DNA from: Moorella glycerini
Lineage (GTDB): Bacteria; Bacillota; DSM-521; Neomoorellales; Neomoorellaceae
Direction of reading: 5' to 3'
Assembly: GCF_009735625.1 (NCBI RefSeq)
Contig: NZ_CP046244.1
Span: 1,674,001-1,738,000 of the forward strand
DNA length: 64,000 nucleotides
In this document: positions 4,761 to 18,923 of the stretch, piece by piece
Layout of the letters: the number at the start of each line of letters is the position of its first letter
How positions within the stretch are numbered: position 1 is the stretch's first letter
Translations under genes and position numbers: made by a program
Notes under the pieces: generated by a model
What the model was told of the DNA's origin: nothing
Databases searched by the model: none
Seen by the model: only the letters and a program-made list of their open reading frames with translations

Positions 4761-6440
4761 ATGAAATGGAAGGAAGCGCGGAGCCGGAAGATAGCTGAAT
4801 ATGTCTTGTTTTTTTACTTGTGCGCTTTGACCGTAATGGGTATAGCTTTATTAAGTGCTATGGGCCTTCCTTTTAGTCCTATGGCGATGTATAACTATTA
4901 TCAACTCGGTATTGCTTTGGGTGCGTTTGCTTTAGCAGGAATAATTTATCTTACAAAAGATTATGTAACAGTTCTTACTTCAAGCGAACCATCACGCCCC
5001 ATTAGTTTGCTAATTAGCTTTCTTATCTGGGCCTTTACCATAGCTATCGTCTTTATTGCAGACTTCCATGGTAGTTCCTTTAAAGTCCTTTACTTTGTGC
5101 CGGTGATCTATGCAGCTATAAATCACGGGCAAAAATATGGCCTTATATTTTCTTGTTTATGTGTCATCCCTCTCATTATCAATGACTTGTTACATTATTC
5201 TCCTGACGGGGTCAATAAAGCTTTAGAAGCCGATCTGGTCCTCGGCCTGATTATCTTTATGGCCGCCTGGCTGATCGGGGGATTCCTGGATATAGAAAGG
5301 GATACCATAAAGAAACTGGCAGAACTGGCTAATCGAGACGACCTGACAGGCTTGTGGAATAAACGTTATTTTTATCACGCCTTGGAAGACCTGTTTGCCC
5401 GGGCTAAAAAGGAAAATTTAAACCTCTCCCTGGTTCTTGCCGATGTTGACTACTTTAAAACGTACAACGACGCTTTGGGCCATCTTGAGGGAGATAAGGT
5501 TTTAAAAAAAATTGGGGAGATTATTGGCCATGCAGTTACATCAGAGGCTGTAGCTGCCCGTTATGGAGGCGAAGAGTTTGCTGTACTGTTACCCGGGTAC
5601 TCCAGCCAGCAGGCACTTACTGTTGCTGAACAGATTCGTAAAGAGGTCGAGAATTACTCTTTCTTTGGCCAAGAGTACCAACCGGCCCAGAAGATCACCC
5701 TGTCGCTGGGTATTGCTACTTACCCCGTTCATGCTAATACATCCATAGAACTTATTCGCCGGGCCGATGATGCCCTCTTCCGGGCCAAATCGGTACGTAA
5801 GAACAGGACGGAGATCTATTTTTCCGTTTTAGACGAGCTTTGCACCTCATATAACAGTCCGGGTGAGGACCTGCTCCATACGTTGAAGACCCTGCTCAGT
5901 GTCATCCAGGCCAAGGATCGCTATACCCGCGGGCATTCCGAACGGGTTACAGAGTATGCAGTAGTTGTGGGCGAATATCTCAATTTAGCCGGAGAAGAGT
6001 TAAATACCCTGAGACTCAGCGCTTTTCTCCATGATATCGGTAAGATAGAGATAGAACGTGAACTTTTAAACAACCCGCTTCCTTTAAACGAGGAAGAGCG
6101 TTTGCTTTTTCAGCAACACCCGGTCTGGGGGGCCGAAATAGTTCGTTCCGTACCCCTGCTGGGCAAATGCACTCCCATAATTCTTGCCCATCACGAGAAT
6201 TTTGACGGCTCGGGTTACCCTTCTGGACTGAAAGGTGAGGCTATACCCCTTGGTGCCAGGATTTTACGAGTGGTGGACAGCTTTGATGCCATGGCAACCA
6301 ATAGACCCTATCGGCGGGCTTTAACTGTCAGCCGTTGCCTGGAAGAACTCCGGCGAGGGGCCGGAACCCTATATGATCCAGAAATTGTTACGGCCTTTCT
6401 CAATGTTTCGGATCGCATTTTCCGCTTGCTGGCAAGTTAG
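4761..6440 (+). CDS. Membrane diguanylate cyclase / HD-GYP phosphodiesterase
   Basis: The 559-residue protein has five or six membrane helices (about 14-175). A GGDEF domain follows (about 186-350) with the active-site motif RYGGEEF at 267-273. The HD-GYP domain (about 375-550) has HDIGKIE at 424-430 and HHENFDGSGYP at 477-487. It could therefore both make and break c-di-GMP. The RxxD inhibitory site normally just before GGDEF is not present, so product feedback inhibition is not expected. It follows the agr terminator, so co-regulation with the peptide is only a proximity argument. Confidence 0.9.
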   Translation: MKWKEARSRKIAEYVLFFYLCALTVMGIALLSAMGLPFSPMAMYNYYQLGIALGAFALAGIIYLTKDYVTVLTSSEPSRPISLLISFLIWAFTIAIVFIADFHGSSFKVLYFVPVIYAAINHGQKYGLIFSCLCVIPLIINDLLHYSPDGVNKALEADLVLGLIIFMAAWLIGGFLDIERDTIKKLAELANRDDLTGLWNKRYFYHALEDLFARAKKENLNLSLVLADVDYFKTYNDALGHLEGDKVLKKIGEIIGHAVTSEAVAARYGGEEFAVLLPGYSSQQALTVAEQIRKEVENYSFFGQEYQPAQKITLSLGIATYPVHANTSIELIRRADDALFRAKSVRKNRTEIYFSVLDELCTSYNSPGEDLLHTLKTLLSVIQAKDRYTRGHSERVTEYAVVVGEYLNLAGEELNTLRLSAFLHDIGKIEIERELLNNPLPLNEEERLLFQQHPVWGAEIVRSVPLLGKCTPIILAHHENFDGSGYPSGLKGEAIPLGARILRVVDSFDAMATNRPYRRALTVSRCLEELRRGAGTLYDPEIVTAFLNVSDRIFRLLAS

Positions 6441-6555
6441 CGGGGAGTTGCTGAGTTAGGTTCAAGGCGCGGGGAGGATTCCATGGCCCTGGGAGCGAAA
6501 CTTAATTTAAACTGAAATGCGTTATATATAAAAACATTAGGAAGCAGGAACTGGT

Positions 6556-6780
6556 ATGGCTGTTTACCGGCTGGATACATGCGGGGAAATGTGCCCGATA
6601 CCGATTGTGCGCACAAAGGTCAAGCTCAAGCAGCTGGCCCGCGGCGATGTACTTATCGTTACCAGTGACCACAGTTGCACCAGCCAGTCCCTGGCCGAGA
6701 CGGTACAAAAAATGGGGTACCGCGTCGAGGTCAGGGGGGTAGCCCACGGCATCTGGGAAGTTGTAATTGAGAAGGGGTAA
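6556..6780 (+). CDS. tusA: TusA/SirA-like sulfur carrier protein
   Basis: This 74-residue protein has the family signature GEMCPIPIVRTK, with the sulfur-carrying Cys in CPxP near residue 13, and the usual C-terminal block VRGVAHGIWEVVIEKG. TusA-type proteins carry persulfide sulfur in the cytoplasm. The YeeE/YedE-type transporter at 7786 and the thiosulfate/polysulfide-reductase-like genes beyond it suggest a role in thiosulfate or sulfane-sulfur uptake. A divergent LysR gene lies between, so it is not in the same transcript as the transporter. Confidence 0.9.
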   Translation: MAVYRLDTCGEMCPIPIVRTKVKLKQLARGDVLIVTSDHSCTSQSLAETVQKMGYRVEVRGVAHGIWEVVIEKG

Positions 6781-6812
6781 GGTAGAGAGATAGAGGAGGG
6801 CCGCCTGCAGGC

Positions 6813-7706
6813 TTAACAGAAAGCCTTCTTATTAGTCAACAGGAAACGAAAAAACTTCTTTTGCAAACTTGTGGCCGGTTTGCCGGCCGGGTAAACAATA
6901 TTAAAGGTGCTGCGAAAGGAAATGCCGTCCACCTGCAGGGCTTTTAAAGTGCCGGCCTGGATTTCCCGCCGGATGGCCAGGCGGGAGAGGAGGGAGACCC
7001 CGTGGCCGGCGGTAATGGCCGATTTAATGGCGTCGTTAGAATTTAACTCCAGGACAACATTCAGGTTGGCAATACTTAGACCCTGCCCGGCCAGGGCGCG
7101 GGCAATCACCCCGCGGGTACCGGAGCCCTCTTCCCGCAGGATTAAGGGTAGGCGGCAGAATTCTTCTAAAGTCACCCTTTCCTGGCCCTGCCAGCCGGGA
7201 GGTACAATTAAAAGGAGTTCATCTTCAGCTACACCCCGGGTGGCCAGGCCAGGCTGGTCGACAGGTCCTTCAATGAGGCCGATATCAATGGTTCTATCCA
7301 GCAACTTCTGGATGGTTTCTTCCCGGTTGCCGACCAGCAGCTTGATATTGGCATCGGGGTATCTTTCTTTAAAGCTATAAATGGTGCAGGGCAGGGCATA
7401 GCTGCCGATGCTGCTGCTGGCGCCGACAATAAGGCGTTCCTGGCCGCTTTTCCAGTTGTTGAGGTCGCGTTTCAGGTTCTCGGCGAGCTGGATAAAGGTC
7501 TGGCCGTATTCGTAAACGATTTCCCCCAGGGCCGTTAACTCCACCCCCCTGGTAGTGCGGGTAAAGAGTTCAACGTCCAGGTCATTTTCTAACAGCTGGA
7601 TTTGATAGCTCAGGGAAGACGGTGACATGTGCAGGAGGCGGGCTGCTTCAGAAATGGATTTTACCTGAGCTACCGTGCAAAAGGCCTGCAGGTGGTGGAG
7701 GTTCAT
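6813..7706 (-). CDS. LysR family transcriptional regulator (CysB/CbbR-like)
   Basis: The 297-residue protein has the N-terminal winged helix-turn-helix typical of LysR (HLQAFCTVAQVKSISEAARL, then SPSSLSYQIQLLE). A periplasmic-binding-like effector domain follows (about 90-295). It is transcribed divergently from the YeeE/YedE gene with only ~79 nt between starts, the standard arrangement for a LysR protein controlling its neighbour. The likely ligand is a sulfur compound or a metabolite of it, by context only. Confidence 0.88.
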   Translation of the reverse strand: MNLHHLQAFCTVAQVKSISEAARLLHMSPSSLSYQIQLLENDLDVELFTRTTRGVELTALGEIVYEYGQTFIQLAENLKRDLNNWKSGQERLIVGASSSIGSYALPCTIYSFKERYPDANIKLLVGNREETIQKLLDRTIDIGLIEGPVDQPGLATRGVAEDELLLIVPPGWQGQERVTLEEFCRLPLILREEGSGTRGVIARALAGQGLSIANLNVVLELNSNDAIKSAITAGHGVSLLSRLAIRREIQAGTLKALQVDGISFRSTFNIVYPAGKPATSLQKKFFRFLLTNKKAFC

Positions 7707-7725
7707 GCACCAGACCTCCCTGATG

Positions 7726-7762
7726 GATGGTTACGTTTTTATTATAACATATCACAACCATC
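7726..7762. promoter_or_regulatory. Candidate LysR operator and divergent promoter region
   Basis: GATGGTT at 7726-7732 is mirrored by AACCATC at 7756-7762. The symmetrical element has an AT-rich centre holding TATAAC on the plus strand (7743-7748) and TATAAT on the minus strand (7746-7741). Its place between the two starts suggests LysR binding over overlapping promoters. Confidence 0.45.
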
Positions 7763-7785
7763 TGGTGGATAAGGCGGTAAGCACC

Positions 7786-8985
7786 ATGGCAAAGGAGCTG
7801 CAAAAGGAGTTACAATTGGCTGAACAGGTTAAGGTTAACCTCAAGTCCCAGGAACCTTATGCCCTTGGTGCAGCCCTGCTTGCTGCCGGCATCTACTGGT
7901 GGCTGCAGGGACACGGGCCGGGCCTGGGCGAAGCCTGGCTTTTTGGCCTGGCCTTTGGCTTTGTCCTCCAGCGCAGCCGGTTTTGTTTTGTGGCCGCTTT
8001 CCGCGATCCCTTTATTACCGGTAACACCTCCGTGAGCCGGGCCGTGGTCATCGCCCTGGCGGCAGCCACCCCGGGGATGGCCCTGGTGGCCTGGAGGGGG
8101 GTTACCCTGGCGGATGTTCACCCGGCAGGCTGGCATACCCTGGCCGGCGGCCTCCTCTTCGGTATGGGGATGGTCCTGGCCGGCGGCTGCGCCAGCGGCA
8201 ATTTAATGCGGGTTGGCGAGGGGCACCTGCTGCAATGGCTGGTCCTGGGCGCCTTTATCGGCGGCTCCCTCTGGGGGGCCCATGATTTCGGCTGGTGGCA
8301 CCAAGTAAGCATCTGCCGCTCTCCCACCCTGTTTCTACCTAAAGTGCTGGGGTGGGGGCCGGCCCTTGTTATCCAGCTCCTGGCCCTGGGGCTGATTTAC
8401 CTGGGCTTAAGGTACCTGGAAAACCGGTCTTTTCCTGGTTCTACCCCCGCCTGGAGGCCGCGGCAGCCCTTTCGCCTGCGTTACCTGTGGTCCCGTCCCT
8501 GGCCTTACTGGACCGGGGGACTGGCCCTGGCGGTCCTGGATGTGGCTTTAATCTGGCGCGGCGGCCAGCCCTGGGGTATTACCACCGCCTTTAGCTACTG
8601 GGGCGCCTGGCTCTGGAAGGCTTTTACCGGGGCACCGCCGGGCTGGTACTATTATTCCCTGCCGGCCCACAGCCGGGCTTTGAGCCTGGGGTTCCTGGCC
8701 GAGCCCCGTACCCTTCTGGACCTGGGGCTCATCGGAGGGGCCTTTTTAGCCGCCCTGGCAGCTTCGGAATTTCGCCTGCACTGGCCGCGGCGCTGGCCCC
8801 TGGTACCGGCCGCCTTAACAGGCGGGCTGTTAATGGGCTACGGGGCCAGGATTGCCATGGGGTGCAATATTGGCGCCCTTTTCAACGGCATCGCTTCCTT
8901 CTCCCTCCACGGCTGGCTCTTCGGTTTGGGCCTGGCCGGCGGCGCTTACCTGGGGAGCAAGCTCCTGCTCCGTTTCCTGGTATAA
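7786..8985 (+). CDS. yedE: YeeE/YedE family transporter (thiosulfate or selenium/sulfur uptake)
   Basis: About 400 residues with roughly ten membrane helices in two pseudo-repeats. Each repeat has the conserved channel Cys: AGGCASGNLMRVGEG in the first half, MGCNIGALFNGI in the second. Those Cys residues relay thiosulfate in characterised YeeE/TsuA proteins. The longer open frame starts at 7675, but ATG at 7786 is chosen because upstream codons lie in the divergent promoter region. Linkage to TusA supports a TsuAB-like uptake pair. A YedE-type selenium role is the main alternative. Confidence 0.8.
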   Translation: MAKELQKELQLAEQVKVNLKSQEPYALGAALLAAGIYWWLQGHGPGLGEAWLFGLAFGFVLQRSRFCFVAAFRDPFITGNTSVSRAVVIALAAATPGMALVAWRGVTLADVHPAGWHTLAGGLLFGMGMVLAGGCASGNLMRVGEGHLLQWLVLGAFIGGSLWGAHDFGWWHQVSICRSPTLFLPKVLGWGPALVIQLLALGLIYLGLRYLENRSFPGSTPAWRPRQPFRLRYLWSRPWPYWTGGLALAVLDVALIWRGGQPWGITTAFSYWGAWLWKAFTGAPPGWYYYSLPAHSRALSLGFLAEPRTLLDLGLIGGAFLAALAASEFRLHWPRRWPLVPAALTGGLLMGYGARIAMGCNIGALFNGIASFSLHGWLFGLGLAGGAYLGSKLLLRFLV

Positions 8986-9078
8986 ATCTGCAACCTATCG
9001 AAAGGTCTGGTGGCCGTCGAAGATACCGTTAGACAATTACTGCACCAAAAGGCCGCCAGGCCGCATGATTCCTGGCCA

Positions 9079-9104
9079 AGGGGAGCTTTTGCAGCTCCCT
9101 TTTG
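9079..9104 (+). terminator. Terminator after the YeeE/YedE gene
   Basis: GGGAGC (9081-9086) and GCTCCC (9094-9099) form a stem with a ~7-nt loop, followed by TTTTGGC. The rest of the 8986-9251 gap shows no gene that I can support, only the ribosome-binding site GGAGG before 9252. Confidence 0.6.
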
Positions 9105-9251
9105 GCTTTACCGGGGTATTCCAGGGGGGGCAGGAGAAAGGGAGGTTGACTGGTAAAATATATTGTGAAAGTAACATTGAGGGCAAATGACAGGAGAGGT
9201 GAATGTGTTAGCGCCAACAGGAAACATTAATCCATTTTCGGAGGTGAGGGC

Positions 9252-11423
9252 ATGTTGGAACAAAGAATAAGCCGGCGAACCTTCCTGAAAGGCTCCCTGG
9301 TAGCCGGGGCCCTGGCCACCTTTGGCGGTAAGCTGGTGCCCCTGGAGCAGGCGGAGGCGGCAGAGGCAACATCCCCGGCAGCTTCCCAGGTCGTTCCCAC
9401 TATTTGCGAAATGTGCGGGGTCAAATGCGGTATTCTGGCCCATGTCCGGGAGGGCCGGGTATGGCGCCTTACCGGTAACCCCAGGGACCCCCAGAGCAGC
9501 GGCCGTTTATGTGCCCGGGGCAATGCCGGAACCAAAACTCTTTATGATCCCGACCGCCTGAAGGGTCCCATGAAAAGGGTGGGCGATGGGAAGTTCCAGC
9601 CCATCGGCTGGGAGCAGGCCTTTAAGGAAATTGGAGCCAAGCTCCAGGAATTGAAAGGCCGTTATGGCCCCCAGACCCTGGTCTGGCTGGCGCACCCGGA
9701 GCTTATTTCTCCCTTGGAGAAGCATTTCATGGCTGCCTTCGGTTCCCCCAATTATACCGGCCATGGGCCGACCTGTTACAGTAGCCGTAACGTGGCTTTT
9801 GAGCAAATGTACGGCGGTGTCCCGGGGGTTGACTACCGCAATGTCAGGTACTACATTGCCTTTGGCCGTAACCTCACAGGAGGTATTAAAAACCCTGATA
9901 TTCAAAAGATCGTTGCCGCCAGGGCAGAAGGCGCCCACCTGGTGGCCGTAGACCCGCGCCTGAGTGATTTTGCCTTCTTTGCCGATGAGTGGCTCCCCAT
10001 CAGGCCGGGTACCGATCTGGCCCTGGTCCTGGCCCTGATTAACGTTATCATTAATGAAAACCTCTATGATGCCGCCTTCGTGGCCGAACGCACGGTGGGC
10101 TTTGCTGAATTAAAAGCCGGGGTGGCTACTTATACCCCTGAATGGGCGGCTAAAATCACGGGAATTGACGCGGCGACCATCACCCGCCTTGCCCGGGAAC
10201 TGGCGGCGGCCAAACCGGCGGCAGCCGTCGATCCCGGCTGGCATGCCGTTACCGGTTCCCAGTATTACAACAGCGTCCAGGCGGCCCGGGCCGTAGCCGC
10301 CCTCAACGCCCTGCTGGGCAACCTGGGTGCCAGAGGCGGCCTGGCCTTCCCGCCCGGGATTAAACTGGGTGATCCATCCAGTATCATGGGCCCCAAACCG
10401 CCGGCGGCAGCAGGGCCACGCTGGGATGGGGCCGGCAGCGAGAAATGGCCCCTCAATAAGGCCCACGGCATGATCCAGGTTTTCCCTGAGAGGGTCAAGG
10501 AAGATAAACCCTACCCCCTCAAAGCGGTAGTGATCCAGCACCTGAACCCGGTACGCTCCAGTACGGATTCCGGGGCCTTTATTGAGGCGCTGAAGCAGCT
10601 GGAGCTGGTGGTGGCCATTGATATCCAGATGAACGATACGGCCTACTATGCCCATTATGTGTTGCCGGAAGCCACCTACCTGGAAAGGTACGACCCCCTG
10701 ATGACGGCGGGCAACAAAGTGGTGTTGCGCCAGCCGGCAGTAGAGCCCCTTTTTGATACCAGAGGTGCGGAAGAAATCATCGCCGGCCTGGCTAAAGCCG
10801 CGGGCCTAAGCGCGTACTTTAACTTTACCCTGGAGCAATATAACGACGCCCTGCTGGCTCCCCTGGGCCTGACCCAGGCGCAGCTGGCCCGGGTAGGGGT
10901 AGCCGAAGTAGAAGCCCAGCAACCCGATTACACCAAACTCAAGACGCCTTCCGGCAAAATTGAGCTGGCCTGCCAGGCCTTTGTCAAGGCCGGCAGCACC
11001 CTGACCCCGGCCTGGGAGCCGCCCCTGGTGGAACCGGGGGAAGACGAGTTCCGCTTCATCCAGGGCCATGTACCCATGCACACCCATACCACTACCGACA
11101 ACAACGCCTACCTGCACGCCATCATGCCGGAAAACGAGCTCTGGGTCCATCCCAGCCGCGCCGGCAAGCTGGGCATCAAGACGGGGGATCTGGTCGAAGT
11201 GGCTTCCCGGGTAGGCAAGGTCAAGGTGAAGGCCCGGGTGACGGAGGGCATCCATCCCGAGGCCGTTTTCCTGGCCCATGGCTTTGGCTGCGGTGTTCCT
11301 TTAAGAAAGCTGGCCTATAACAAAGGAGCCAATGATAGCGCTTTGATACCAGTTATTACGGCGCCTGTCTCCGGGGCGGCGGCCCAGTGCGAAACTCTGG
11401 TGACGGTACGGAAGGCAGGGTGA
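9252..11423 (+). CDS. Molybdopterin oxidoreductase catalytic subunit, thiosulfate/polysulfide reductase-like (PhsA/PsrA)
   Basis: The 723-residue protein starts with a twin-arginine signal (SRRTFLKG), so it should be exported folded. A [4Fe-4S] site follows (C52, C55, C59, C87). The next motif, GHGPTCYSSRN, puts a Cys (C175) at the usual molybdenum ligand position. The rest is a standard DMSO-reductase-family fold, ending in the molybdopterin-dinucleotide-binding domain. Family placement with PhsA/PsrA/SrrA-type reductases fits the adjacent TusA and YeeE genes. Arsenate or tetrathionate reductase activity cannot be excluded. It is first in a three-gene operon. Confidence 0.85.
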   Translation: MLEQRISRRTFLKGSLVAGALATFGGKLVPLEQAEAAEATSPAASQVVPTICEMCGVKCGILAHVREGRVWRLTGNPRDPQSSGRLCARGNAGTKTLYDPDRLKGPMKRVGDGKFQPIGWEQAFKEIGAKLQELKGRYGPQTLVWLAHPELISPLEKHFMAAFGSPNYTGHGPTCYSSRNVAFEQMYGGVPGVDYRNVRYYIAFGRNLTGGIKNPDIQKIVAARAEGAHLVAVDPRLSDFAFFADEWLPIRPGTDLALVLALINVIINENLYDAAFVAERTVGFAELKAGVATYTPEWAAKITGIDAATITRLARELAAAKPAAAVDPGWHAVTGSQYYNSVQAARAVAALNALLGNLGARGGLAFPPGIKLGDPSSIMGPKPPAAAGPRWDGAGSEKWPLNKAHGMIQVFPERVKEDKPYPLKAVVIQHLNPVRSSTDSGAFIEALKQLELVVAIDIQMNDTAYYAHYVLPEATYLERYDPLMTAGNKVVLRQPAVEPLFDTRGAEEIIAGLAKAAGLSAYFNFTLEQYNDALLAPLGLTQAQLARVGVAEVEAQQPDYTKLKTPSGKIELACQAFVKAGSTLTPAWEPPLVEPGEDEFRFIQGHVPMHTHTTTDNNAYLHAIMPENELWVHPSRAGKLGIKTGDLVEVASRVGKVKVKARVTEGIHPEAVFLAHGFGCGVPLRKLAYNKGANDSALIPVITAPVSGAAAQCETLVTVRKAG

Positions 11424-11429
11424 GTTTAG

Positions 11430-12125
11430 ATGGCCAGGTTTGGTATGCTTGTAGATCTAACGCGTTGTATAGGCTGCTACGGCTGTACCGTGGCCTGCCA
11501 GGCCAGGTGGGACTTATTACCCCAGGTGCAGTTTACTAAAGTCCACCGTTATGAGGTGGGTACTTTTCCCAGGGTCAAAGGCGGGGTGGTAACCACCCAG
11601 TGCATGCACTGTGACGATCCGCCCTGTGCCCGCGTCTGTCCTACCGGAGCTACCCGGAAACGTGCCGACGGTATTGTTGTAGTTGACGAGCAGGAGTGTA
11701 TCGGCTGCCGTTACTGCCAGTCGGCCTGCCCCTATGACGCCCGGAGCTTTAACCCGGAGCGGAATATCGTTCAGAAATGTTATTTCTGCTATGACTTTGT
11801 AGAGCAAGGGGAAAAACCGGCCTGTGTGGACACCTGTATGGCCGGGGCCAGGATTTTTGGCGACCTGGAAGATAAAGGGAGCGAGTTATCCCGGGCCATA
11901 ACAGCTAAAAAAGCCGTCCAGATCAAAGGAACTTCTATCTTTTACGTACCGCCGCGGAACCTGGATACCTCCGTCCTGCCCGCGGATTTCCAGGAACCCG
12001 GGGCGGTACGCATCTGGCAGGACATTGTCCATCCGGCCGGGAAAACCGTGATGGGCCTGGCCGCCGGCGCCGTAGTTGCCGGTTTAGTAGTTAACACTGT
12101 TAATAAAAGCAATAACCATAAATGA
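11430..12125 (+). CDS. Four-cluster ferredoxin-like electron transfer subunit with C-terminal membrane anchor
   Basis: The 231-residue protein carries Cys motifs for four [4Fe-4S] clusters (CIGCYGCTVAC, CMHCDDPPCARVCP, CIGCRYCQSACP, CYFCYDF...CVDTC), as in PsrB, DmsB and FdnH. It starts 6 nt after the catalytic gene. A hydrophobic segment near residues 203-221 (VMGLAAGAVVAGLVV) predicts a C-terminal anchor, which resembles FdnH rather than the soluble PsrB/PhsB subunits. It should pass electrons between the cytochrome b and the molybdenum subunit. Confidence 0.88.
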   Translation: MARFGMLVDLTRCIGCYGCTVACQARWDLLPQVQFTKVHRYEVGTFPRVKGGVVTTQCMHCDDPPCARVCPTGATRKRADGIVVVDEQECIGCRYCQSACPYDARSFNPERNIVQKCYFCYDFVEQGEKPACVDTCMAGARIFGDLEDKGSELSRAITAKKAVQIKGTSIFYVPPRNLDTSVLPADFQEPGAVRIWQDIVHPAGKTVMGLAAGAVVAGLVVNTVNKSNNHK

Positions 12126-12149
12126 AAGATTTTAAGGAGGCGGGTGACA

Positions 12150-12827
12150 ATGCCTGAAGAAAGAGTGGAGCGCTTCAACCTGGCTGAGCGCCTGGGTCAC
12201 TGGAGCCATGGCATCACTTTTGTCGTCCTGTTGCTGACGGGTTCAGCCCTGGTCTTCCGCGGTTATGCCGGCCTGATAGGGCCTGAGGGATTGCGCCTCT
12301 TTCGCAGCCTTCATCACTTGATGGCCTATCCCTTTACCTTCCTGACGGTAATTATCCTGCTGCTTGGCACGCCACGTACGGTCGGGCAATGGTTCAAGGA
12401 GTGCCTTACCTGGGGGCGGGACGACTTGCGCTTTATTGCCGCCTTCCCCAGAGAATTTTTCGGGCTGAAGGTGCAGTTACCCGAGCAGGGCAAGTTTAAC
12501 GCCGGCGAAAAGCTCAATTCCCTCCTGACCATTGCCGGCTCCATCTTAATGGTTGTTACCGGCTGGATCTTGCTCCTGCGGGATAGCGTTGCCCCTGCCC
12601 TGGTGGCCTGGGCCCTGCCCCTGCACTCGGCCGGGGCCCTGGTCATGGGCGGCGTCATCCTGGGCCATATTTACCTGGCCCTGGGTCACCCCAATTCCCG
12701 GGAGTCCATCAACGGCATGCTTTCAGGTAAGGTATCCGCCAGGTTTGCCCGCGAACATCATGCCCGCTGGTACCGGGAACTACAAGCCGGAGACTTTCAG
12801 GGGAAAAAACAACAAAAAATCGCTTAA
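12150..12827 (+). CDS. Formate-dehydrogenase-gamma-like cytochrome b membrane subunit
   Basis: About 225 residues with four membrane helices. Candidate haem ligands include His in RLGHWSHG, LHHLMA and the later LHSAGALVMGGVILGHIY, as in FdnI/PhsC cytochromes b. ATG at 12150 has AAGGAGG 9 nt upstream. GTG at 12144 is also open but too close. It should anchor the complex and exchange electrons with the quinone pool. It belongs to the cytochrome b class, not the NrfD class of PsrC. Confidence 0.82.
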   Translation: MPEERVERFNLAERLGHWSHGITFVVLLLTGSALVFRGYAGLIGPEGLRLFRSLHHLMAYPFTFLTVIILLLGTPRTVGQWFKECLTWGRDDLRFIAAFPREFFGLKVQLPEQGKFNAGEKLNSLLTIAGSILMVVTGWILLLRDSVAPALVAWALPLHSAGALVMGGVILGHIYLALGHPNSRESINGMLSGKVSARFAREHHARWYRELQAGDFQGKKQQKIA

Positions 12828-12956: not shown

Positions 12957-15068
12957 GTGACAGGTGCAGGATTCTATGCCAGGGGCGTCAGCGCCATTAT
13001 CCCGGCCTACAACGAGGCAGCTACGGTAGGTAAAGTAATTGATACTTTAAAAGAAGTGGCCAGCATCGTCGAAATCATCGTAGTCAGCGACGGTTCGCAA
13101 GATGCTACGGCCAGCGTTGCCCGCCGCCATGGTGCCCGGGTAATTGAGCTGGCTACCAATGGGGGTAAAGGGGCGGCCATGACCGTTGGTGCCCGTGCGG
13201 CCCGGGAGGAGATCCTGCTTTTCCTGGATGCCGACCTGGAGGGGTTGACGGCAGCCCATGTCGAAGCCCTGGTTGCTCCTTTACTGGCCGGCAGCGCCGA
13301 TATGACGGTAGGTATTTTCAGCCGGGGACGATCGCTCACGGACCTGGCCCAGGTAGTGGCTCCCCACCTTTCCGGCCAGCGCGCCATCCGTAAAGAATTG
13401 TTCCTGGCGGTGGGAGCAGAAAAAAGCCGTTTTGAGGTCGAAGTATTGCTTACCAGTGAAGCCCGCGCCCGGGGCTGGCGGGTGCAGAAAATACCCCTGG
13501 CCAATATGACCCATATCATGAAGGAAGAAAAGCGGGGGTTATACCGGGGCGTAGTCGCCCGGATGGGGATGTATAAAGACATCCTGGGCTACATCTTGCG
13601 CTTGACCAGGAAAAAGATCAAGGCGCGGCCGGTAGCCCTGTTGCTTTTACTGCTTATCCTGGCGGGAGCCTTGAATTATGATGTCCTGGCCCTGCGGTCG
13701 GCGGCAGCGGCAGCCGGGCGGATGCCTGATCTGGAACTCCCGGCCGGAGGCCACCGGATTCTGGTCATTTCGCCCCACCCTGATGACGAAACCCTGGGAG
13801 CCGGAGGCCTCATCGCTGAGGCCAGAGACCGGGGTGATGCCGTGAAGGTAGTTTTTATGACCAACGGCGATGGTTTCCGGCGGGGAGTGGAAAAGTTCAA
13901 CGGTCCTTTGCCGGCAGGGGCCAGCGACTTTTTGCAATACGGACGGGTACGGCAGCAGGAAGCTATCACTGCCCTGGGGGTCCTGGGAGTTAAATCTAGT
14001 GATATCATTTTTCTGGGTTATCCCGACGGCGGCCTGGCCCCCATCTGGCTGGGTTACTGGGGGGAAGACAGGCCCTATACCTCCATTTATACCCGCCAGG
14101 CGGCAGTACCCTATAAACTGGCCTTTGCTCCGGGTGAGCCCTATACTGCTCCGGCTTTATTGAATACTCTAGTAGCAATCCTCAAAGACTACCGGCCCAC
14201 CGATATTTATGTAACTGATACCAATGACAGCCACCCTGATCACTGGGCCACGGGGGCCTTCACCCTGGCGGCTGCAGGTAAAGTCAGGGAAGAAGATCCG
14301 TCCTTCAGGCCGAATCTTTATACGTTTGTTATTCACACCGGGACCTGGCAGATATTGCCTGTAATGGAGCGGAAGGCCAAACCCCTGCTGCCCCCCGGCT
14401 ATTTCCTCAGCCGGGGCACGCCCTGGTATAAATTGCCCCTCTCGCCGGAAGCCATGGACCGGAAAAAGAAGGCCATTGCCGCTTATAAAACCCAGGACCT
14501 GGTCATGCCGACTTTCCTGGCCAATTTTGAACGGCCCAACGAAGTTTTCTCTCACCTTGTAGACCAGCAGCTGGTACAGGCTGATAGCAGTGCCGGAGGA
14601 GACGGCGAGCCCGCTTACTGGCCGGAGTCAGCCCGGGTAGCTTTAGATCCGGCCGGCGATCAGCTGACCAGGAAACTGGAGAAGGGTGGCGATTTAAAGG
14701 CAGCTTACCTCCTGCAGGCTGGCAATACCACCTTTGTACGCCTGGATACCTGGGGCCGGCCCGGCTTTCCAGTAATATATACGGCCAGCATCTACCTGTT
14801 ACCCGGTAAACCTGCAGGCCAGGTCCAGCGCTTCATCTTGCAGGTAGCCCCCGGTGAAAGGCAAGCCAGGTGGCTGGCCCGGCCGACCGGTTATAACCCG
14901 GGGGCTGTGCGGGTAATCTACCGGGAGCACAGTGTTGAAATAGCACTACCCGGCCTGGTGCCGCCAGGAGAGCATCACCTGATGTTTGCCGCCGCCACCT
15001 CTATCAGTAAAATACCCCTGGACCGGATACCCTGGCGCCTTTTACAGGTAAACGGGGGCGATATATAA
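12957..15068 (+). CDS. Fusion of GT2 glycosyltransferase and PIG-L/LmbE-type deacetylase
   Basis: The 703-residue protein has three parts. Residues 10-210 form a family 2 glycosyltransferase (PAYNEAATVGKVI, SDGSQDAT, metal-binding DADL at 91-94). Residues ~225-240 are a membrane helix. Residues ~265-480 form a PIG-L zinc deacetylase with PHPDDETLG at 273-281 and a later HPDHWATGA. A further ~200-residue domain of unknown type follows. PIG-L enzymes remove acetyl from GlcNAc conjugates, so the fusion suggests transfer of an N-acetylated sugar followed by deacetylation. GTG start with GGGGAG upstream. It leads an operon of four genes. Confidence 0.85.
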   Translation: MTGAGFYARGVSAIIPAYNEAATVGKVIDTLKEVASIVEIIVVSDGSQDATASVARRHGARVIELATNGGKGAAMTVGARAAREEILLFLDADLEGLTAAHVEALVAPLLAGSADMTVGIFSRGRSLTDLAQVVAPHLSGQRAIRKELFLAVGAEKSRFEVEVLLTSEARARGWRVQKIPLANMTHIMKEEKRGLYRGVVARMGMYKDILGYILRLTRKKIKARPVALLLLLLILAGALNYDVLALRSAAAAAGRMPDLELPAGGHRILVISPHPDDETLGAGGLIAEARDRGDAVKVVFMTNGDGFRRGVEKFNGPLPAGASDFLQYGRVRQQEAITALGVLGVKSSDIIFLGYPDGGLAPIWLGYWGEDRPYTSIYTRQAAVPYKLAFAPGEPYTAPALLNTLVAILKDYRPTDIYVTDTNDSHPDHWATGAFTLAAAGKVREEDPSFRPNLYTFVIHTGTWQILPVMERKAKPLLPPGYFLSRGTPWYKLPLSPEAMDRKKKAIAAYKTQDLVMPTFLANFERPNEVFSHLVDQQLVQADSSAGGDGEPAYWPESARVALDPAGDQLTRKLEKGGDLKAAYLLQAGNTTFVRLDTWGRPGFPVIYTASIYLLPGKPAGQVQRFILQVAPGERQARWLARPTGYNPGAVRVIYREHSVEIALPGLVPPGEHHLMFAAATSISKIPLDRIPWRLLQVNGGDI

Positions 15069-16055
15069 ATGGCGCCCCTCCTCTTTGGCCTGGAAGAAGA
15101 AGTTTTCATTACCGAACCGGGCCGGCCTACCCTCCAGTCGTTGTATTACCTGGCCCGCCTCCTCTGGCGGGATCCGGCCGATTATTATACCCATACCGCC
15201 TGCAACTTTACCCGGGGCAAGGATTTACGTTTTGGCCTGATGAGCGGTATAGAGATTTCTACCGGGGCCTTTGCAGAAATCCCGGACCTGCTGGCCGATC
15301 TGGAACGTCGCCGCCGGGAGCTGGCGGCCGTCTGTTCCGGCCTGATCGTCCCGGTGGGACACCTCTTCGACCAGGAGGAGCCTACCAATATCTGCGGCAT
15401 GCACGTTCATATCAGCGGTTTCCCGGATCGCGACCGGGCCTACCGCAACCTGGTCTACTTTTTACCCCTGCTGGCCTTGCTGGTAATCAACTCTCCCGTT
15501 GCCGGCAACCGTTGTTACGGCCAGTCCTACCGCTGGGCCGAGGCCTTTGCCATCGGGCCTTTAAAGGAGGACAGGCGTTACCGTTTCCAGGACCTTATTG
15601 AATCCAAACGCCTGGGTACCCTGGAGATCCGGGTTTTTGACCCGGTGTGGGACCTGGCACGCATCCGGATTCTCCTGGAGTGTATCCAGGCCATCCTCCT
15701 GGCTGATGCAGATTATCCCGGTGATATAAAGGTTTATAATGGCCTGCGCCTGAAGGTAGCCAGAGAGGGTTACATAGAGGAATTACGCCCGGTTTACCGG
15801 GACTTAACCCGGCTCCTGCCGCTGCCGGAAGACCTGTTCCGCCGTACCCCTGCCGACACCGTTAAGGAAATCTGGCTCCGGGAGGGGACCCTGGCCACCT
15901 ATGCTGCCCTGGATAATGCCTACCGCAATGGGGTTTTAAAGCCCCGGCCCCTGCCACCGGCAAAGGTCAGCTGGCCCTTGATGCTGGCGGGCTTCTGCGG
16001 TTATTATTTACCCAGGATGCCCTATAATATCAAGAAAGTGTGGTCGGAATGGTGA
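15069..16055 (+). CDS. Glutamate-cysteine-ligase-like carboxylate-amine ligase (GCS2/YbdK family)
   Basis: This 328-residue protein begins FGLEEEVF, the Mg-ATP-binding motif of the GCS2 family. It also has NICGMHVHIS and a C-terminal LGTLEIRVFDP block, both conserved in YbdK and plant-type glutamate-cysteine ligases. Such enzymes join an amino group to a glutamate-like carboxylate using ATP. The true acceptor is unknown. The gene starts directly after the stop of the GT2-PIG-L fusion, so it should act on the same product or pathway. Confidence 0.8.
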   Translation: MAPLLFGLEEEVFITEPGRPTLQSLYYLARLLWRDPADYYTHTACNFTRGKDLRFGLMSGIEISTGAFAEIPDLLADLERRRRELAAVCSGLIVPVGHLFDQEEPTNICGMHVHISGFPDRDRAYRNLVYFLPLLALLVINSPVAGNRCYGQSYRWAEAFAIGPLKEDRRYRFQDLIESKRLGTLEIRVFDPVWDLARIRILLECIQAILLADADYPGDIKVYNGLRLKVAREGYIEELRPVYRDLTRLLPLPEDLFRRTPADTVKEIWLREGTLATYAALDNAYRNGVLKPRPLPPAKVSWPLMLAGFCGYYLPRMPYNIKKVWSEW

Positions 16056-16765
16056 CCTTTTTTGAAATCCTGGCCGCCCTTGCCGTCATCGGCGGGGGCA
16101 TCTTCTGGTACCTGAGGAAGGTATGGTTTTATCGCGACCCGGTGCGGGTAGCGCCGCAAGAAGAAGGGGCCATCCTGGCCCCGGCCGACGGCAGGGTGGT
16201 CTATATCAAGCCCTTTCGTCATGGCGAAGTGGCAGCGGAAAAACTGGGCCGCTCTATTCCCATTGAAGAAATAATGAAGGCCCCGGGCCTTGGCGAGAGG
16301 GGCTGGATCGTGGGTATCTACATGTCGCCCCTGGACGTCCATTTTAACTACGCTCCCATTGATGCCCGGGTGGAGCATATGGTCCATACCCGGGCCAGGG
16401 TTAATTTGCCCATGGTCGACCTGTGGGAATATATCCGCCTCACCTATCTCCGGCGGGCGGTAGATCTCTTCAGCCATCGCTATCGCCTGGTAAATGAACG
16501 GTTGACCATTTTTTTAAGGGGCCGGGACATGCAGCTGGCCATGGTCGAGATTGCCGACAAGTTTGTCAATAAGATTAACTGTTTTATTTCTCCCGGCCAG
16601 GCCGTTACCCGGGGCCAGAAGGTTTCCTTTATCGAACGGGGTTCCCAGGTAGACCTGGTTATCTTCAGGGAGGATGTCGAGTTTGCCGTCCGGGTGGGCC
16701 AGCAGGTTTACGGCGCCCGGACGGTGGTGGCCCGTTACCGGCCGGCAGGCGGGGTAGAGCAGTGA
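16049..16765 (+). CDS. psd: Phosphatidylserine decarboxylase-like proenzyme
   Basis: About 238 residues: one N-terminal membrane helix, then the family blocks PADGRVVYI and IYMSPLDVHFNYAPIDARV. Near the C-terminus, ERGSQVDLVIF matches the GS(x)VD self-cleavage site of short-form decarboxylases, where the Ser becomes the pyruvoyl group. ATG at 16049 overlaps the previous stop. The enzyme would decarboxylate a phosphatidylserine-like lipid to an amine. Its place between a ligase and a DedA gene rather than next to pssA leaves room for another aminolipid substrate. Confidence 0.85.
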   Translation: MVTFFEILAALAVIGGGIFWYLRKVWFYRDPVRVAPQEEGAILAPADGRVVYIKPFRHGEVAAEKLGRSIPIEEIMKAPGLGERGWIVGIYMSPLDVHFNYAPIDARVEHMVHTRARVNLPMVDLWEYIRLTYLRRAVDLFSHRYRLVNERLTIFLRGRDMQLAMVEIADKFVNKINCFISPGQAVTRGQKVSFIERGSQVDLVIFREDVEFAVRVGQQVYGARTVVARYRPAGGVEQ

Positions 16766-17367
16766 CAGCCGTTCACGTCTATGTGGTCCTCTTTGGCCTG
16801 CTGGTCATCGAAGGCACAGGTGTGCCGGGTATCCCCTTTGAACCGGCCTTCCTGGCCGCCGGTTATTTAATTGAACGCGGGGAGATGAGCTTCTGGGGGG
16901 CAGTAGTGGTTGGGACCGCCGGCAATCTCCTGGGCAACTTGCTGGGCTACTGGCTGGGGGCCAGGCCGGGGCGTGGTCTAATCGAGCGTTTTTTCCACCG
17001 GGGCCTGGGTCAGGATGGCCTGGCCTCAGCCCGTTACTGGCTGGGCCGCTATGGAGCGGCAGTGATTATTTTCGCCCGCTGGTTCGGTCCCATCAGGACG
17101 CCGACCATCCTGGCGGCGGGAGTCCTGGGGATGGAGGCCGGCATTTATACCCTTTATTCAGCCCTGGGGGCCTTTACCTGGACCCTGGCCTGGCAGTATG
17201 CCAGCTGGAAGGGGGCCCATTATCTCCTCAGGTGGTGGCACTTTTATCGCCGGTACGCCACCTGGTGGATGGATATCCTGCTGATCCTGGTACTGCTGGC
17301 CATTACCGCCGGTTCTATCTATTATTGCTGGCGATGCCGGCGTATGGGAAGAAATGGAAAAAAATAG
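16762..17367 (+). CDS. DedA family membrane protein (VTT domain)
   Basis: The 201-residue protein has several membrane helices and typical DedA blocks: IPFEPAFLAAGYL, GTAGNLLGNLLGYWLG and the arginine-bearing IIFARWFGPIRTP. Some DedA proteins are lipid flippases (undecaprenyl phosphate, phosphatidylethanolamine). The GTG start overlaps the decarboxylase stop by four bases, so translation is coupled. In this operon it is the best candidate for moving the modified lipid across the membrane. That role is inferred. Confidence 0.85.
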   Translation: MTAVHVYVVLFGLLVIEGTGVPGIPFEPAFLAAGYLIERGEMSFWGAVVVGTAGNLLGNLLGYWLGARPGRGLIERFFHRGLGQDGLASARYWLGRYGAAVIIFARWFGPIRTPTILAAGVLGMEAGIYTLYSALGAFTWTLAWQYASWKGAHYLLRWWHFYRRYATWWMDILLILVLLAITAGSIYYCWRCRRMGRNGKK

Positions 17368-17368
17368 G

Positions 17369-17398
17369 TTGACAAATCCCTGCGCCTTATGATAGAAT
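17369..17398 (+). promoter_or_regulatory. Sigma-A-type promoter for the riboswitch transcript
   Basis: TTGACA at 17369-17374 and TAGAAT at 17393-17398 are separated by 18 nt, just upstream of the riboswitch. The -35 overlaps the end of the DedA gene. Confidence 0.7.
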
Positions 17399-17407
17399 GA
17401 TTTAGAA

Positions 17408-17556
17408 CAACTTAATAAAGCGGGCGCTGAATCCCTTTGGAAAGGGAACGGGGGAACCAATTTTTGGGGTGAATCCTTGTACAAGGTAGGGTTAGCTTTC
17501 GACCCGAACCCGGCAGCTAACTTCGTAAGCGTGGAAAGTGAAAGAGGTAGACTACC
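17408..17556 (+). ncRNA. c-di-AMP riboswitch (ydaO/yuaA class)
   Basis: The leader holds the conserved blocks of this class in order: TTAATAAAGCGGGCGCTGAA, GGGGGAACCAA, TTTTTGGGGTGAATCC, AGGTAGGG, CTTTCGACCCGAACCCGGCA and GCTAACTTCGTAAGCGT. The pseudo-symmetric pair of binding regions is intact. A terminator follows at once, so ligand binding should turn transcription off. It precedes glutamate 2,3-aminomutase with no other gene between. Confidence 0.93.
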
Positions 17557-17575
17557 CCTTTATTTTGGTGTGCAG

Positions 17576-17606
17576 AAAACCCCGGTTCAGGCCGGGGTCT
17601 TTATAT
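17576..17606 (+). terminator. Riboswitch expression-platform terminator
   Basis: ACCCCGG and CCGGGGT (17579-17585 and 17592-17598) form a stem with a 6-nt loop, followed by CTTTATATTATTTT. It lies between the aptamer and the gene's ribosome-binding site. Confidence 0.8.
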
Positions 17607-17639
17607 TATTTTATCCATCAGGAAAGGAGGCAGCCTGTT

Positions 17640-18923
17640 GTGAGTGTTTATCTAAACAAAGGGAGGCTGATGGGTAGAGAAGTCAAGCGGGAAATGGCCC
17701 TGCAAAGGGCAGCTGAGTTGAAGGCCAGGATTATTGATTACCTTGATGCTAAGGATGCCATTCCCAGTGGTTTGGAAGCAGCAGCGGAGATTGAAGCCAG
17801 CCGGCAGCGGATTATGGCTTATTTTGGTGCCAGGGAGGCCGACTGGGAAGACTGGCGCTGGCAATTGCAGCACCGGATTACCTCGGTTGACGTCCTGGAG
17901 GAATTAGTTCCCTTAACTGAAACGGAAAAGAAAGCCATCAAGAAGGTTGAGCGTACCTATCGCTGGGCTGTTTCGCCCTATTACCTTTCCCTCATGGGCA
18001 AGGATGCCGCCTGCCCCATCCGGCGCCAGGCCTTCCCCAGTGCCGCCGAGCTGGAGGATAATACCGGGGTACTTGACCCCATGGATGAAGAGTTAACGTC
18101 ACCGGCACCGGCCATTACCCGCCGTTATCCCGACCGCTTGATTATTAACGTCACCAACCAGTGTGCCATGTACTGCCGGCACTGCCAGCGGCGCCGCAAT
18201 ATTGGGGAAGTTGACCGGGGCCGCAGCCGCCGGGAGTTAGAGCAGGCCCTGGAGTATATCCGCCGCAATGAAGAAATCCGTGATGTCCTGATTACCGGCG
18301 GTGATGCCTTGATGCTGAGTGATGCCATGATCGACTGGTTGTTAACGGAACTGGATCATATCCCTCATGTGGAAATCAAACGCCTGGGTACCCGGGTGCC
18401 GGTTACTTTACCCCAGCGTGTTACGCCGGCATTGTGCCGGGTACTGGCCAAGCACCCGCCAATTTACCTCAATACCCAGTTTAACCACCCGCGGGAGGTT
18501 ACGGCGGCAGCGAAAGCGGCCTGCGACCGCCTGGTGCAGGCCGGGGTGGTCCTGGGGAACCAGGCGGTTTTATTAAAGGGCGTCAATAACCATCCCTTTA
18601 TTATGAGGAAGCTCAACCAGGAACTGTTGAAAATCCGGGTACGGCCCTATTATATCTTCCACGCCAAGCCGGTTAAAGGGACGACCCACTTTATCACTTC
18701 CATTGAGGAAGGCGTGGAAATAATGGAGAAGCTGCGCGGCTATACCTCCGGGCTGGCCGTACCTACCTATATAATCAACGCTCCCCACGGCCTGGGCAAG
18801 ACGCCCATCTTACCCCAGTATGTGCTGGCCCACAATGACAACCAGGTCATCCTGCGCACCTGGGAGAAGCGGACCGTTTTTTACCCCAACACCGCTAACG
18901 ACGAGCAACCGGCCGGGGCTTGA
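17640..18923 (+). CDS. eam: Glutamate 2,3-aminomutase (radical SAM/PLP enzyme)
   Basis: The enzyme interconverts L-glutamate and beta-glutamate. The 427-residue protein has the radical SAM cluster CAMYCRHC (C175, C179, C182) and the PLP lysine near HGLGKTP. Lysine 2,3-aminomutase uses two Asp residues to bind the substrate amine. Here these are Lys (FHAKPVKG, K343) and Asn (IINAPHG, N380), the substitutions reported for clostridial glutamate 2,3-aminomutase. GTG at 17640 has AAAGGAGG 9 nt upstream. ATG at 17670 is an alternative. Beta-glutamate is a compatible solute, which fits control by c-di-AMP. Confidence 0.85.
   Translation: MSVYLNKGRLMGREVKREMALQRAAELKARIIDYLDAKDAIPSGLEAAAEIEASRQRIMAYFGAREADWEDWRWQLQHRITSVDVLEELVPLTETEKKAIKKVERTYRWAVSPYYLSLMGKDAACPIRRQAFPSAAELEDNTGVLDPMDEELTSPAPAITRRYPDRLIINVTNQCAMYCRHCQRRRNIGEVDRGRSRRELEQALEYIRRNEEIRDVLITGGDALMLSDAMIDWLLTELDHIPHVEIKRLGTRVPVTLPQRVTPALCRVLAKHPPIYLNTQFNHPREVTAAAKAACDRLVQAGVVLGNQAVLLKGVNNHPFIMRKLNQELLKIRVRPYYIFHAKPVKGTTHFITSIEEGVEIMEKLRGYTSGLAVPTYIINAPHGLGKTPILPQYVLAHNDNQVILRTWEKRTVFYPNTANDEQPAGA

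Follow-up and report, generated by a model that had tools for sequence, protein, structure and literature searches.

A conserved ligase-decarboxylase gene pair of Moorella and other bacteria as a candidate membrane-lipid head-group module

The results showed that two genes, encoding a GCS2-like ligase and a decarboxylase resembling phosphatidylserine decarboxylase (Psd), are the invariant core, outside Moorellia, of a cassette that we analysed in a stretch of 64,000 nucleotides of Moorella glycerini DNA (the window). The reading that we favour, at a probability of roughly 0.4, is that this core forms a two-enzyme lipid head-group module which would replace the PssA-Psd pathway, and whose lipid in Moorella would be further decorated and exported by a glycosyltransferase (GT2), a DedA protein and a PIG-L deacetylase.

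The initial annotation had described four abutting or overlapping genes, and their open reading frames were recovered in that arrangement (Table 1), with the catalytic residues intact in all four proteins. The identical gene order was found in 14 of 22 Moorellia genomes, one of them with an apparent 1.39-kb deletion in the locus (G009); in G015 a contig ends inside the decarboxylase gene, and in G016 the cassette is split across contigs. The order is kept despite differing flanks, and the four-gene set is far beyond chance. Statements on whole genomes, here and below, are based on profile searches.

Table 1. Features of the cassette; nucleotide positions refer to the window, aa positions to the respective protein.
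Feature	Position	Strand	Remarks
GT2-PIG-L fusion	12957..15068	+	ORF, 703 aa
GT2 domain, predicted cytoplasmic	aa 8-220 of fusion	+	Pfam GT2 6e-24; DAD motif
Transmembrane linker helix between GT2 and PIG-L	13617..13673, aa 221-239	+	Hydropathy and charge, 24 of 25 homologues
PIG-L deacetylase domain	aa 262-535 of fusion	+	Pfam PIG-L 7.5e-32
Beta-rich C-terminal domain of fusion	aa 560-703	+	Present in only some relatives
Ligase ORF	15069..16055	+	Begins one base past the fusion stop
C-terminal amphipathic helix of ligase (AGxxGYYxPKLPYxxxKxxxEW)	15972..16049	+	Conserved; YbdK is without this helix
Decarboxylase ORF	16040..16765	+	16-nt overlap with ligase ORF
N-terminal transmembrane helix of decarboxylase	aa 4-22	+	Pyruvoyl-dependent Psd-like protein
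Insert NLPMVDLWEYIRLTYLRR in decarboxylase, apparently cassette-specific	16403..16456	+	Alignment with short classical Psd and 33 cassette members
Self-cleavage site Gly-Ser (RGSQVD), source of the pyruvoyl group	16640..16645	+	G201-S202 invariant
DedA ORF	16762..17367	+	4-nt overlap with decarboxylase ORF

Confinement of the genes to the Moorella lineage had been set beforehand as the observation that would speak against a conserved pathway; the pair was found across several phyla. In 44 of 46 genomes, belonging to Bacillota, Actinomycetota, Coprothermobacter, Aminicenantes and others, the ligase and decarboxylase genes are immediate neighbours. PIG-L and DedA accompany them in about 27 of the 46, and the GT2 fusion is present in 19. 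Moorella and several other Bacillota encode the complete set of four activities, and in Actinomycetota and others the pair occurs with neither PIG-L nor GT2. Cultured carriers of the cassette include Moorella thermoacetica, which is genetically tractable, M. stamsii and Coprothermobacter platensis, and one Moorella species (G012) is without it. Distant PIG-L homologues hidden before the actinomycetotal ligase were ruled out, the neighbours there being ScpB, amidase, RpiB, endonuclease V and similar proteins. In different lineages the neighbours of the pair are again of membrane-lipid types. The distances among the GCS2 proteins are correlated with those among the Psd proteins (Mantel r 0.88 for 30 loci, with 0 of 2000 permutations as high), which is expected for co-inherited neighbours and is thus supportive only.

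The ligase reached 11.9 bits against the Pfam GCS2 model (PF04107), under its 21-bit cut-off, and a relative (L050) reached 30 bits. Its assignment to the GCS2/YbdK fold was confirmed by the predicted structure (AF2, pLDDT 91), for which the best PDB matches in Foldseek were two YbdK-family structures (1tt4, 8e-11; 1r8g, 9.5e-11). With the YbdK/GCS2 carboxylate-amine ligases (PF04107, TIGR02050) it has in common the fold and the metal ligands; residue conservation was read from a 34-sequence alignment, and the metal and phosphate ligands E9, E11, D52, E62, H114, E186 and R188 align with those of E. coli YbdK. It differs from YbdK, to which it is about 22% identical in the alignment, by an extra N-terminal stretch and by the C-terminal amphipathic helix, which probably makes a membrane or partner contact. 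The cassette ligases score 380 to 510 bits in comparison to 18 to 28 bits for other actinobacterial matches, with the gap between them empty. The ligase profile found no significant match among PDB sequences. Kinship with E. coli GshA was also considered and rejected, since profile comparison gave no meaningful alignment, whereas YbdK aligns.

The decarboxylase matched the PS_Dcarbxylase model (PF02666) at 4.3e-36, with 124.9 bits in comparison to a cut-off of 22, and it is the sole PF02666 protein that the profile search found in the window's genome. Among 33 cassette decarboxylases, D50, D99, H101, G201 and S202 are invariant, and hydropathy indicated the N-terminal transmembrane helix in 31. 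The counterparts of D50/D99-H101-S202 in E. coli Psd are D90/D142-H144-S254 (PMC7952604). In a tree with classical Psd, the cassette decarboxylases form their own clade (support 96/93), and the identity of the decarboxylase to true Psd is about 30%. Of the regions compared, only the insert listed in Table 1 looks cassette-specific; the region before the catalytic His was dropped because a comparable segment is present in type I Psd. The decarboxylase profile, run against PDB sequences, gave just one marginal match, to E. coli Psd.

The initial annotation had allowed that the decarboxylase might be the only Psd of the cell and simply make phosphatidylethanolamine (PE). The first part stood, and the second met with the absence of the enzyme that supplies the substrate: profile searches found PssA in none of the 41 cassette genomes tested, in comparison to 32 of 32 tested genomes with classical Psd, where pssA is a common neighbour of psd. 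In the window's genome the sole PF01066 type is a PgsA-type protein that reaches 24 bits with the PssA profile, while true PssA proteins score 181 to 256 bits in leave-one-out runs, and several cassette genomes are without any CDP-alcohol phosphatidyltransferase. A PLD-type PssA was rejected as the source of phosphatidylserine (PS), since PF13091 went unmatched in the window's genome and was seldom matched in cassette genomes. The cassette resembles the PssA-Psd pathway in its transmembrane-anchored pyruvoyl enzyme with D-H-S residues, and in both systems the decarboxylase is often encoded beside the maker of its substrate, presumptive in the case of the cassette; it differs in that a YbdK-fold ligase stands in place of PssA and that the decarboxylase belongs to a separate clade with an insert.

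The main rival to the head-group module, which we consider unlikely while ranking it first among the alternatives, is a new route to ordinary PE, in which PS or a close analogue would come from the ligase-fold protein, or from some other enzyme not yet recognised, and the decarboxylase would act as a plain Psd. A PssA of an unrecognised family may be compatible with an absence that is based on profiles, and PssA is gone exactly where the pair occurs. CdsA, whose product is CDP-diacylglycerol, was present in 40 of the 41 genomes searched for it (cassette carriers and comparison genomes combined), even in genomes without PF01066 or PF13091 proteins, so that some unrecognised enzyme must use CDP-diacylglycerol there. 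On the other hand, the ligase retains every metal- and phosphate-binding residue that activation of a carboxyl group by ATP would be expected to require, and the insert and low identity of the decarboxylase set it apart from true Psd. To our knowledge, no phosphatidyl transfer by a YbdK/GCS2 fold has been described.

The fusion protein bears on whether the four genes act as one chain. Its GT2 domain (PF00535) scored 85.3 bits in comparison to a cut-off of 23.3, with D91-A-D93 invariant, and its PIG-L domain (PF02585) scored 111 bits, with H274, D276, D277, D428 and H429 invariant in 25 sequences. The AF2 model (pLDDT 83) matched GpgS (2e-13), also GtrB, and MshB (1e-11) in Foldseek. The GT2 domain is akin to GpgS and the polyprenyl-phosphate GT2 enzymes, from which it differs in being fused through a transmembrane helix to PIG-L. 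The PIG-L domain shares the fold and HPDDE residues of the MshB/BshB deacetylases, from which it differs by a predicted extracytoplasmic, membrane-anchored location and by having neither a GT4 nor a cysteine ligase partner; neither MshC nor BshC is present among the cassette proteins. The likeness to mycothiol and bacillithiol synthesis that had been drawn at first did not survive at family level, as the GT2 is GpgS/DPM-like and not GT4, and the equivalog cut-offs were widely missed (BshB1, 44.5 of 182.5 bits; MshB, 35.1 of 224 bits). The flank of the linker helix towards GT2 carries a net charge of +4 and the flank towards PIG-L a net charge of 0, so that by the positive-inside rule PIG-L is predicted to lie outside the membrane, opposite to where the ATP-dependent ligase is expected. 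The DedA protein carries a VTT domain (PF09335; 3.8e-16, 60.1 bits in comparison to a cut-off of 33.9), which it shares with the UptA/DedA undecaprenyl-phosphate translocases; UptA (NF052604) is its nearest NCBIfam model, at 67.5 bits under an equivalog cut-off of 250.

A single linear chain, as was originally proposed, would have GT2 make a GlcNAc-lipid, PIG-L free its amine, the ligase add an amino acid, the decarboxylase trim it and DedA flip the product. Such a chain would suit the joint occurrence of the four activities, and PIG-L would yield a free amine usable by a carboxylate-amine ligase. We nevertheless regard it as improbable, given that the two proteins are expected on opposite sides of the membrane, PIG-L outside and the ligase inside, and that the conserved unit is the ligase with the decarboxylase, GT2 and PIG-L being often absent. 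Slightly less credible still is that the two enzymes share a locus and act independently, the decarboxylase making PE from imported or unknown PS and the ligase serving another pathway: one genome has a second, orphan decarboxylase without an adjoining ligase (G008) and an incomplete one has the ligase with no decarboxylase detected (G416), against which stands the adjacency of the pair across phyla with otherwise different flanks. Least credible is a soluble conjugate (a thiol, polyamine or gamma-glutamyl amine) with unrelated membrane proteins nearby, since the closest fold relatives, YbdK and glutamate-cysteine ligase, do use soluble substrates but the decarboxylase helix, the amphipathic ligase helix and the membrane-lipid-type neighbours across lineages speak against it.

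For the head-group module we infer the topology, step order, acceptor and amino acid as follows. At the cytoplasmic face, the YbdK-fold ligase would couple an amino acid to a membrane-bound acceptor at the expense of ATP. The most probable substrate would be an acidic amino acid joined by its side-chain carboxyl, as known GCS and Psd chemistry suggests, so that the alpha-amino and alpha-carboxyl groups would remain unmodified, like those of phosphatidylserine. The membrane-anchored Psd-type enzyme encoded next to the ligase would then remove the alpha-carboxyl through its pyruvoyl group, giving an amine-ended polar lipid, e.g., a 4-aminobutyryl or beta-alanyl lipid. In Moorella and some relatives, GT2, DedA and PIG-L may act further on this lipid or on a partner of it: GT2 would add an N-acetylhexosamine on the inner side, the DedA protein would translocate either the lipid or the polyprenyl phosphate that carries it, and the outward PIG-L domain would deacetylate the sugar outside to give a cationic surface lipid. 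Because GT2 and PIG-L are missing from many cassette genomes, these genomes may not all share one pathway. A literature search for lipids of Moorella or Coprothermobacter, or for the ligase-decarboxylase pair, returned no paper and no biochemical or lipid data. The original suggestion of a conserved, apparently undescribed, membrane-linked pathway is supported.

Moorella are heat-loving, industrial gas-fermenting acetogens. Genome annotation of the decarboxylase as phosphatidylserine decarboxylase leads to a prediction of PE, even though the cassette genomes have no recognisable PS synthase. We see a nearly even chance that the pair is a new general route to an amine-ended membrane lipid in several phyla, replacing PssA-Psd and providing a main polar head group, either an aminoacyl-derived lipid or PE made via a new PS synthase, where CDP-alcohol phosphatidyltransferases are absent. 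If the product is PE, there is a new family of PS synthases; if it is not, the polar lipids now predicted for Moorella, Coprothermobacter and deep-subsurface Actinomycetota are wrong, and the pair would point to a new class of lipid or lipid enzyme.

In the window, which lies in a 3.56-Mb Moorella genome, the four open reading frames were confirmed at the positions proposed in the initial annotation, abutting or overlapping one another, and Pfam agreed with its reading of GT2 and PIG-L together in a single 703-aa protein, of a Psd-family decarboxylase and of a VTT/DedA protein. The second gene, which had been called a GCS2 ligase, scored under the Pfam GCS2 cut-off; the call held at the level of fold, with the AlphaFold model (pLDDT 91) matching best two YbdK-family structures (1tt4, 8e-11; 1r8g, 9.5e-11), followed by glutamate-cysteine ligases and other superfamily members. 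Residues E9, E11, D52, E62, H114, E186 and R188, which do not vary among 34 homologues and are also present in E. coli YbdK, correspond to the metal and phosphate ligands of this fold (two Glu on the first strand, Asp/Glu in the next segment, the His of the HxH region, and Glu-x-Arg near the end). The ligase also carries a conserved amphipathic C-terminal helix. The closest named relative among the loci is M. stamsii (ligase identity 95%).

Positions of the cassette genes and of other features in the window and in related loci
Feature	Position	Remarks
Molybdopterin oxidoreductase set	window 9252-12827	Tat-exported, nearest PhsA/thiosulfate reductase; with four-cluster Fe-S subunit and cytochrome b
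GT2-PIG-L fusion	window 12957-15068 (+)	
Ligase	window 15069-16055 (+)	
Decarboxylase	window 16040-16765 (+)	insert at 16403-16456
DedA	window 16762-17367 (+)	
Promoter-like site	window 17369-17398	strong; upstream of riboswitch
c-di-AMP riboswitch	window 17415-17545	RF00379, 104.5 bits
Glutamate 2,3-aminomutase gene	window 17538-18923	TIGR04368, 717 bits; preceded by riboswitch
Pair with other partners	L049 (Aminicenantes) 6170-11287	
1.39-kb deletion	L025 (genome G009) about 9000-9071	
Orphan decarboxylase	L199 (genome G008) 7513-8283	

The ligase was present in 14 of 22 genomes of the class Moorellia; the GT2-PIG-L gene precedes it in all 14, with differing outer flanks, and decarboxylase and DedA follow it wherever the contig extends far enough. 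A wider survey, combining a 398-genome sample of the Bacillota with a named-genome scan, extended the family to further Bacillota, Coprothermobacter platensis, Actinomycetota including Coriobacteriia, Aminicenantes, 'Ca. Psychracetigena' and 'Ca. Lithacetigena'. The boundary of the family is sharp, since a search of 296 Actinomycetota returned 9 genomes at 380-510 bits and all remaining hits at 18-28 bits. By our own tallies from the locus tables, over a sample with many drafts or MAGs and non-independent lineages, the ligase directly adjoins the decarboxylase in 44 of 46 distinct genomes; the two genes lie at the ends of different contigs in G406, and in the incomplete genome G416 the ligase is present and the decarboxylase was not detected. 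This adjacency recurs in several phyla, bearing out the co-occurrence outside the lineage on which the initial annotation had staked its proposal. PIG-L (usually fused to a TM segment, with the GT2 fusion in 19) and DedA each lie near the pair in about 27 of the 46 genomes, and in Actinomycetota the pair stands without the other cassette genes, amid housekeeping genes. Because of this constant adjacency and these patchy partners, the invariant unit is ligase plus decarboxylase, and GT2, PIG-L and DedA are additions.

Several individual loci differ. At L049 the pair has a different set of membrane-lipid partners, namely a PIG-L without a TM segment, together with an amidase and a flippase-like protein of the LPG_synthase_TM type. 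At L025 the deletion joins about aa 322 of PIG-L to about aa 83 of the ligase in a different reading frame; either the genome has lost both enzymes naturally or its assembly is wrong at this point. The molybdopterin oxidoreductase set is immediately upstream of the cassette in most, not all, Moorella genomes, and the aminomutase gene comes after it in most Moorella-type loci as a separate unit, whose riboswitch suggests that the osmolyte beta-glutamate is under c-di-AMP control.

The cassette decarboxylases form a distinct clade (support 96/93; 98% of bootstrap trees), whose sister group is short classical Psd, at about 30% identity. The E. coli Psd residues D90/D142-H144-S254 (PMC7952604) have kept equivalents in D50, D99, H101 and G201-S202, the cassette-specific insert NLPMVDLWEYIRLTYLRR is flanked by two conserved blocks, and nearly every member has a TM helix ahead of the catalytic domain. 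These sequence features indicate an active, membrane-bound enzyme, and together with the clade they suggest that its head-group specificity is probably altered. The decarboxylase was found in 40 of 41 cassette genomes in a 48-genome search, which found no Psd of any kind in the seven Moorellia genomes without the cassette. It is the sole PF02666 protein in its genome, except in G008, where a second, orphan copy of cassette type, without an adjoining ligase, adjoins a MOSC-like and a radical-SAM gene (named by eye).

The initial annotation had allowed that the decarboxylase may be the only Psd of the cell and simply make phosphatidylethanolamine (PE); the first part stood, apart from G008, and the second is opposed by the absence of a PssA-like protein among the PF01066 matches of the 41 cassette genomes. 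The single PF01066 protein of the window's genome scored 270 bits with the PgsA profile, a figure inflated by its own membership of that profile, and 24 bits with the PssA profile, on which true PssA scored 181-256 bits in leave-one-out; its relative in genome G013 is located in a pgsA-recA neighbourhood. As a control, 32 of 32 classical-Psd genomes tested gave a match of PssA type, at about 65-90 bits to PF01066, and in about half of them the gene directly adjoins psd. No PLD-type enzymes were found in the window's genome. CdsA was found in 40 of 41 genomes searched, a set of both cassette and comparison genomes, and several complete cassette genomes have CdsA and no PF01066 protein; CdsA without any CDP-alcohol phosphatidyltransferase (no PgsA, no PssA) was seen in the complete or near-complete genomes G004, G005, G006, G009, G016, G017 and others with the cassette, and a second search with PgsA itself as query gave the same absence of PF01066 within the class. 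These absences come from six-frame profile searches with a loose first look, using small profiles (8 PgsA and 7 PssA sequences). Since no PssA-like protein was found in the cassette genomes and no PLD-type enzyme in the window's genome, against PssA in every control, the profiles used exclude, as far as their sensitivity goes, phosphatidylserine supply by a known route. The pair may be part of PE synthesis through a route not yet known.

A linear order, in which GT2 makes a GlcNAc-lipid, PIG-L frees its amine, the ligase adds an amino acid and the decarboxylase trims it, had also been proposed. In 24 of 25 PIG-L homologues one TM segment precedes PIG-L and its N-terminal side is more positively charged, so that GT2 is predicted inside and PIG-L outside by the positive-inside rule. 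The ligase should be on the cytoplasmic side, because it depends on ATP and lacks TM segments; a hexosamine freed outside is an unlikely substrate for it, and the linear scheme is therefore weakened. Psd-type enzymes require an amino acid that is held via its side chain and whose alpha-amino and alpha-carboxyl groups are both free, and GCS-type ligases join such a side-chain carboxyl to an amine; the two chemistries are thus compatible with successive reactions on a membrane acceptor. The ligase, brought to the membrane by its amphipathic helix, would join an amino acid through the side-chain carboxyl to the acceptor, and the decarboxylase would next remove the alpha-carboxyl, giving an amine-ended head group. 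In Moorella, GT2 would add a sugar, DedA would export the product, and the outward PIG-L would deacetylate the sugar. The acceptor, the amino acid and the order of steps are our inference. The nearest structures to the Moorella fusion are GpgS, and also GtrB, for GT2 and MshB and its relatives for PIG-L, and the nearest model to the DedA protein is UptA.

Every cassette enzyme is assignable to a known superfamily, and our literature search found no paper on the ligase-decarboxylase pair. In our judgement, what is new in the pathway is that this pair stands where PssA-Psd would be and recurs across phyla, and, depending on its product, the pathway could turn out to be categorically new.
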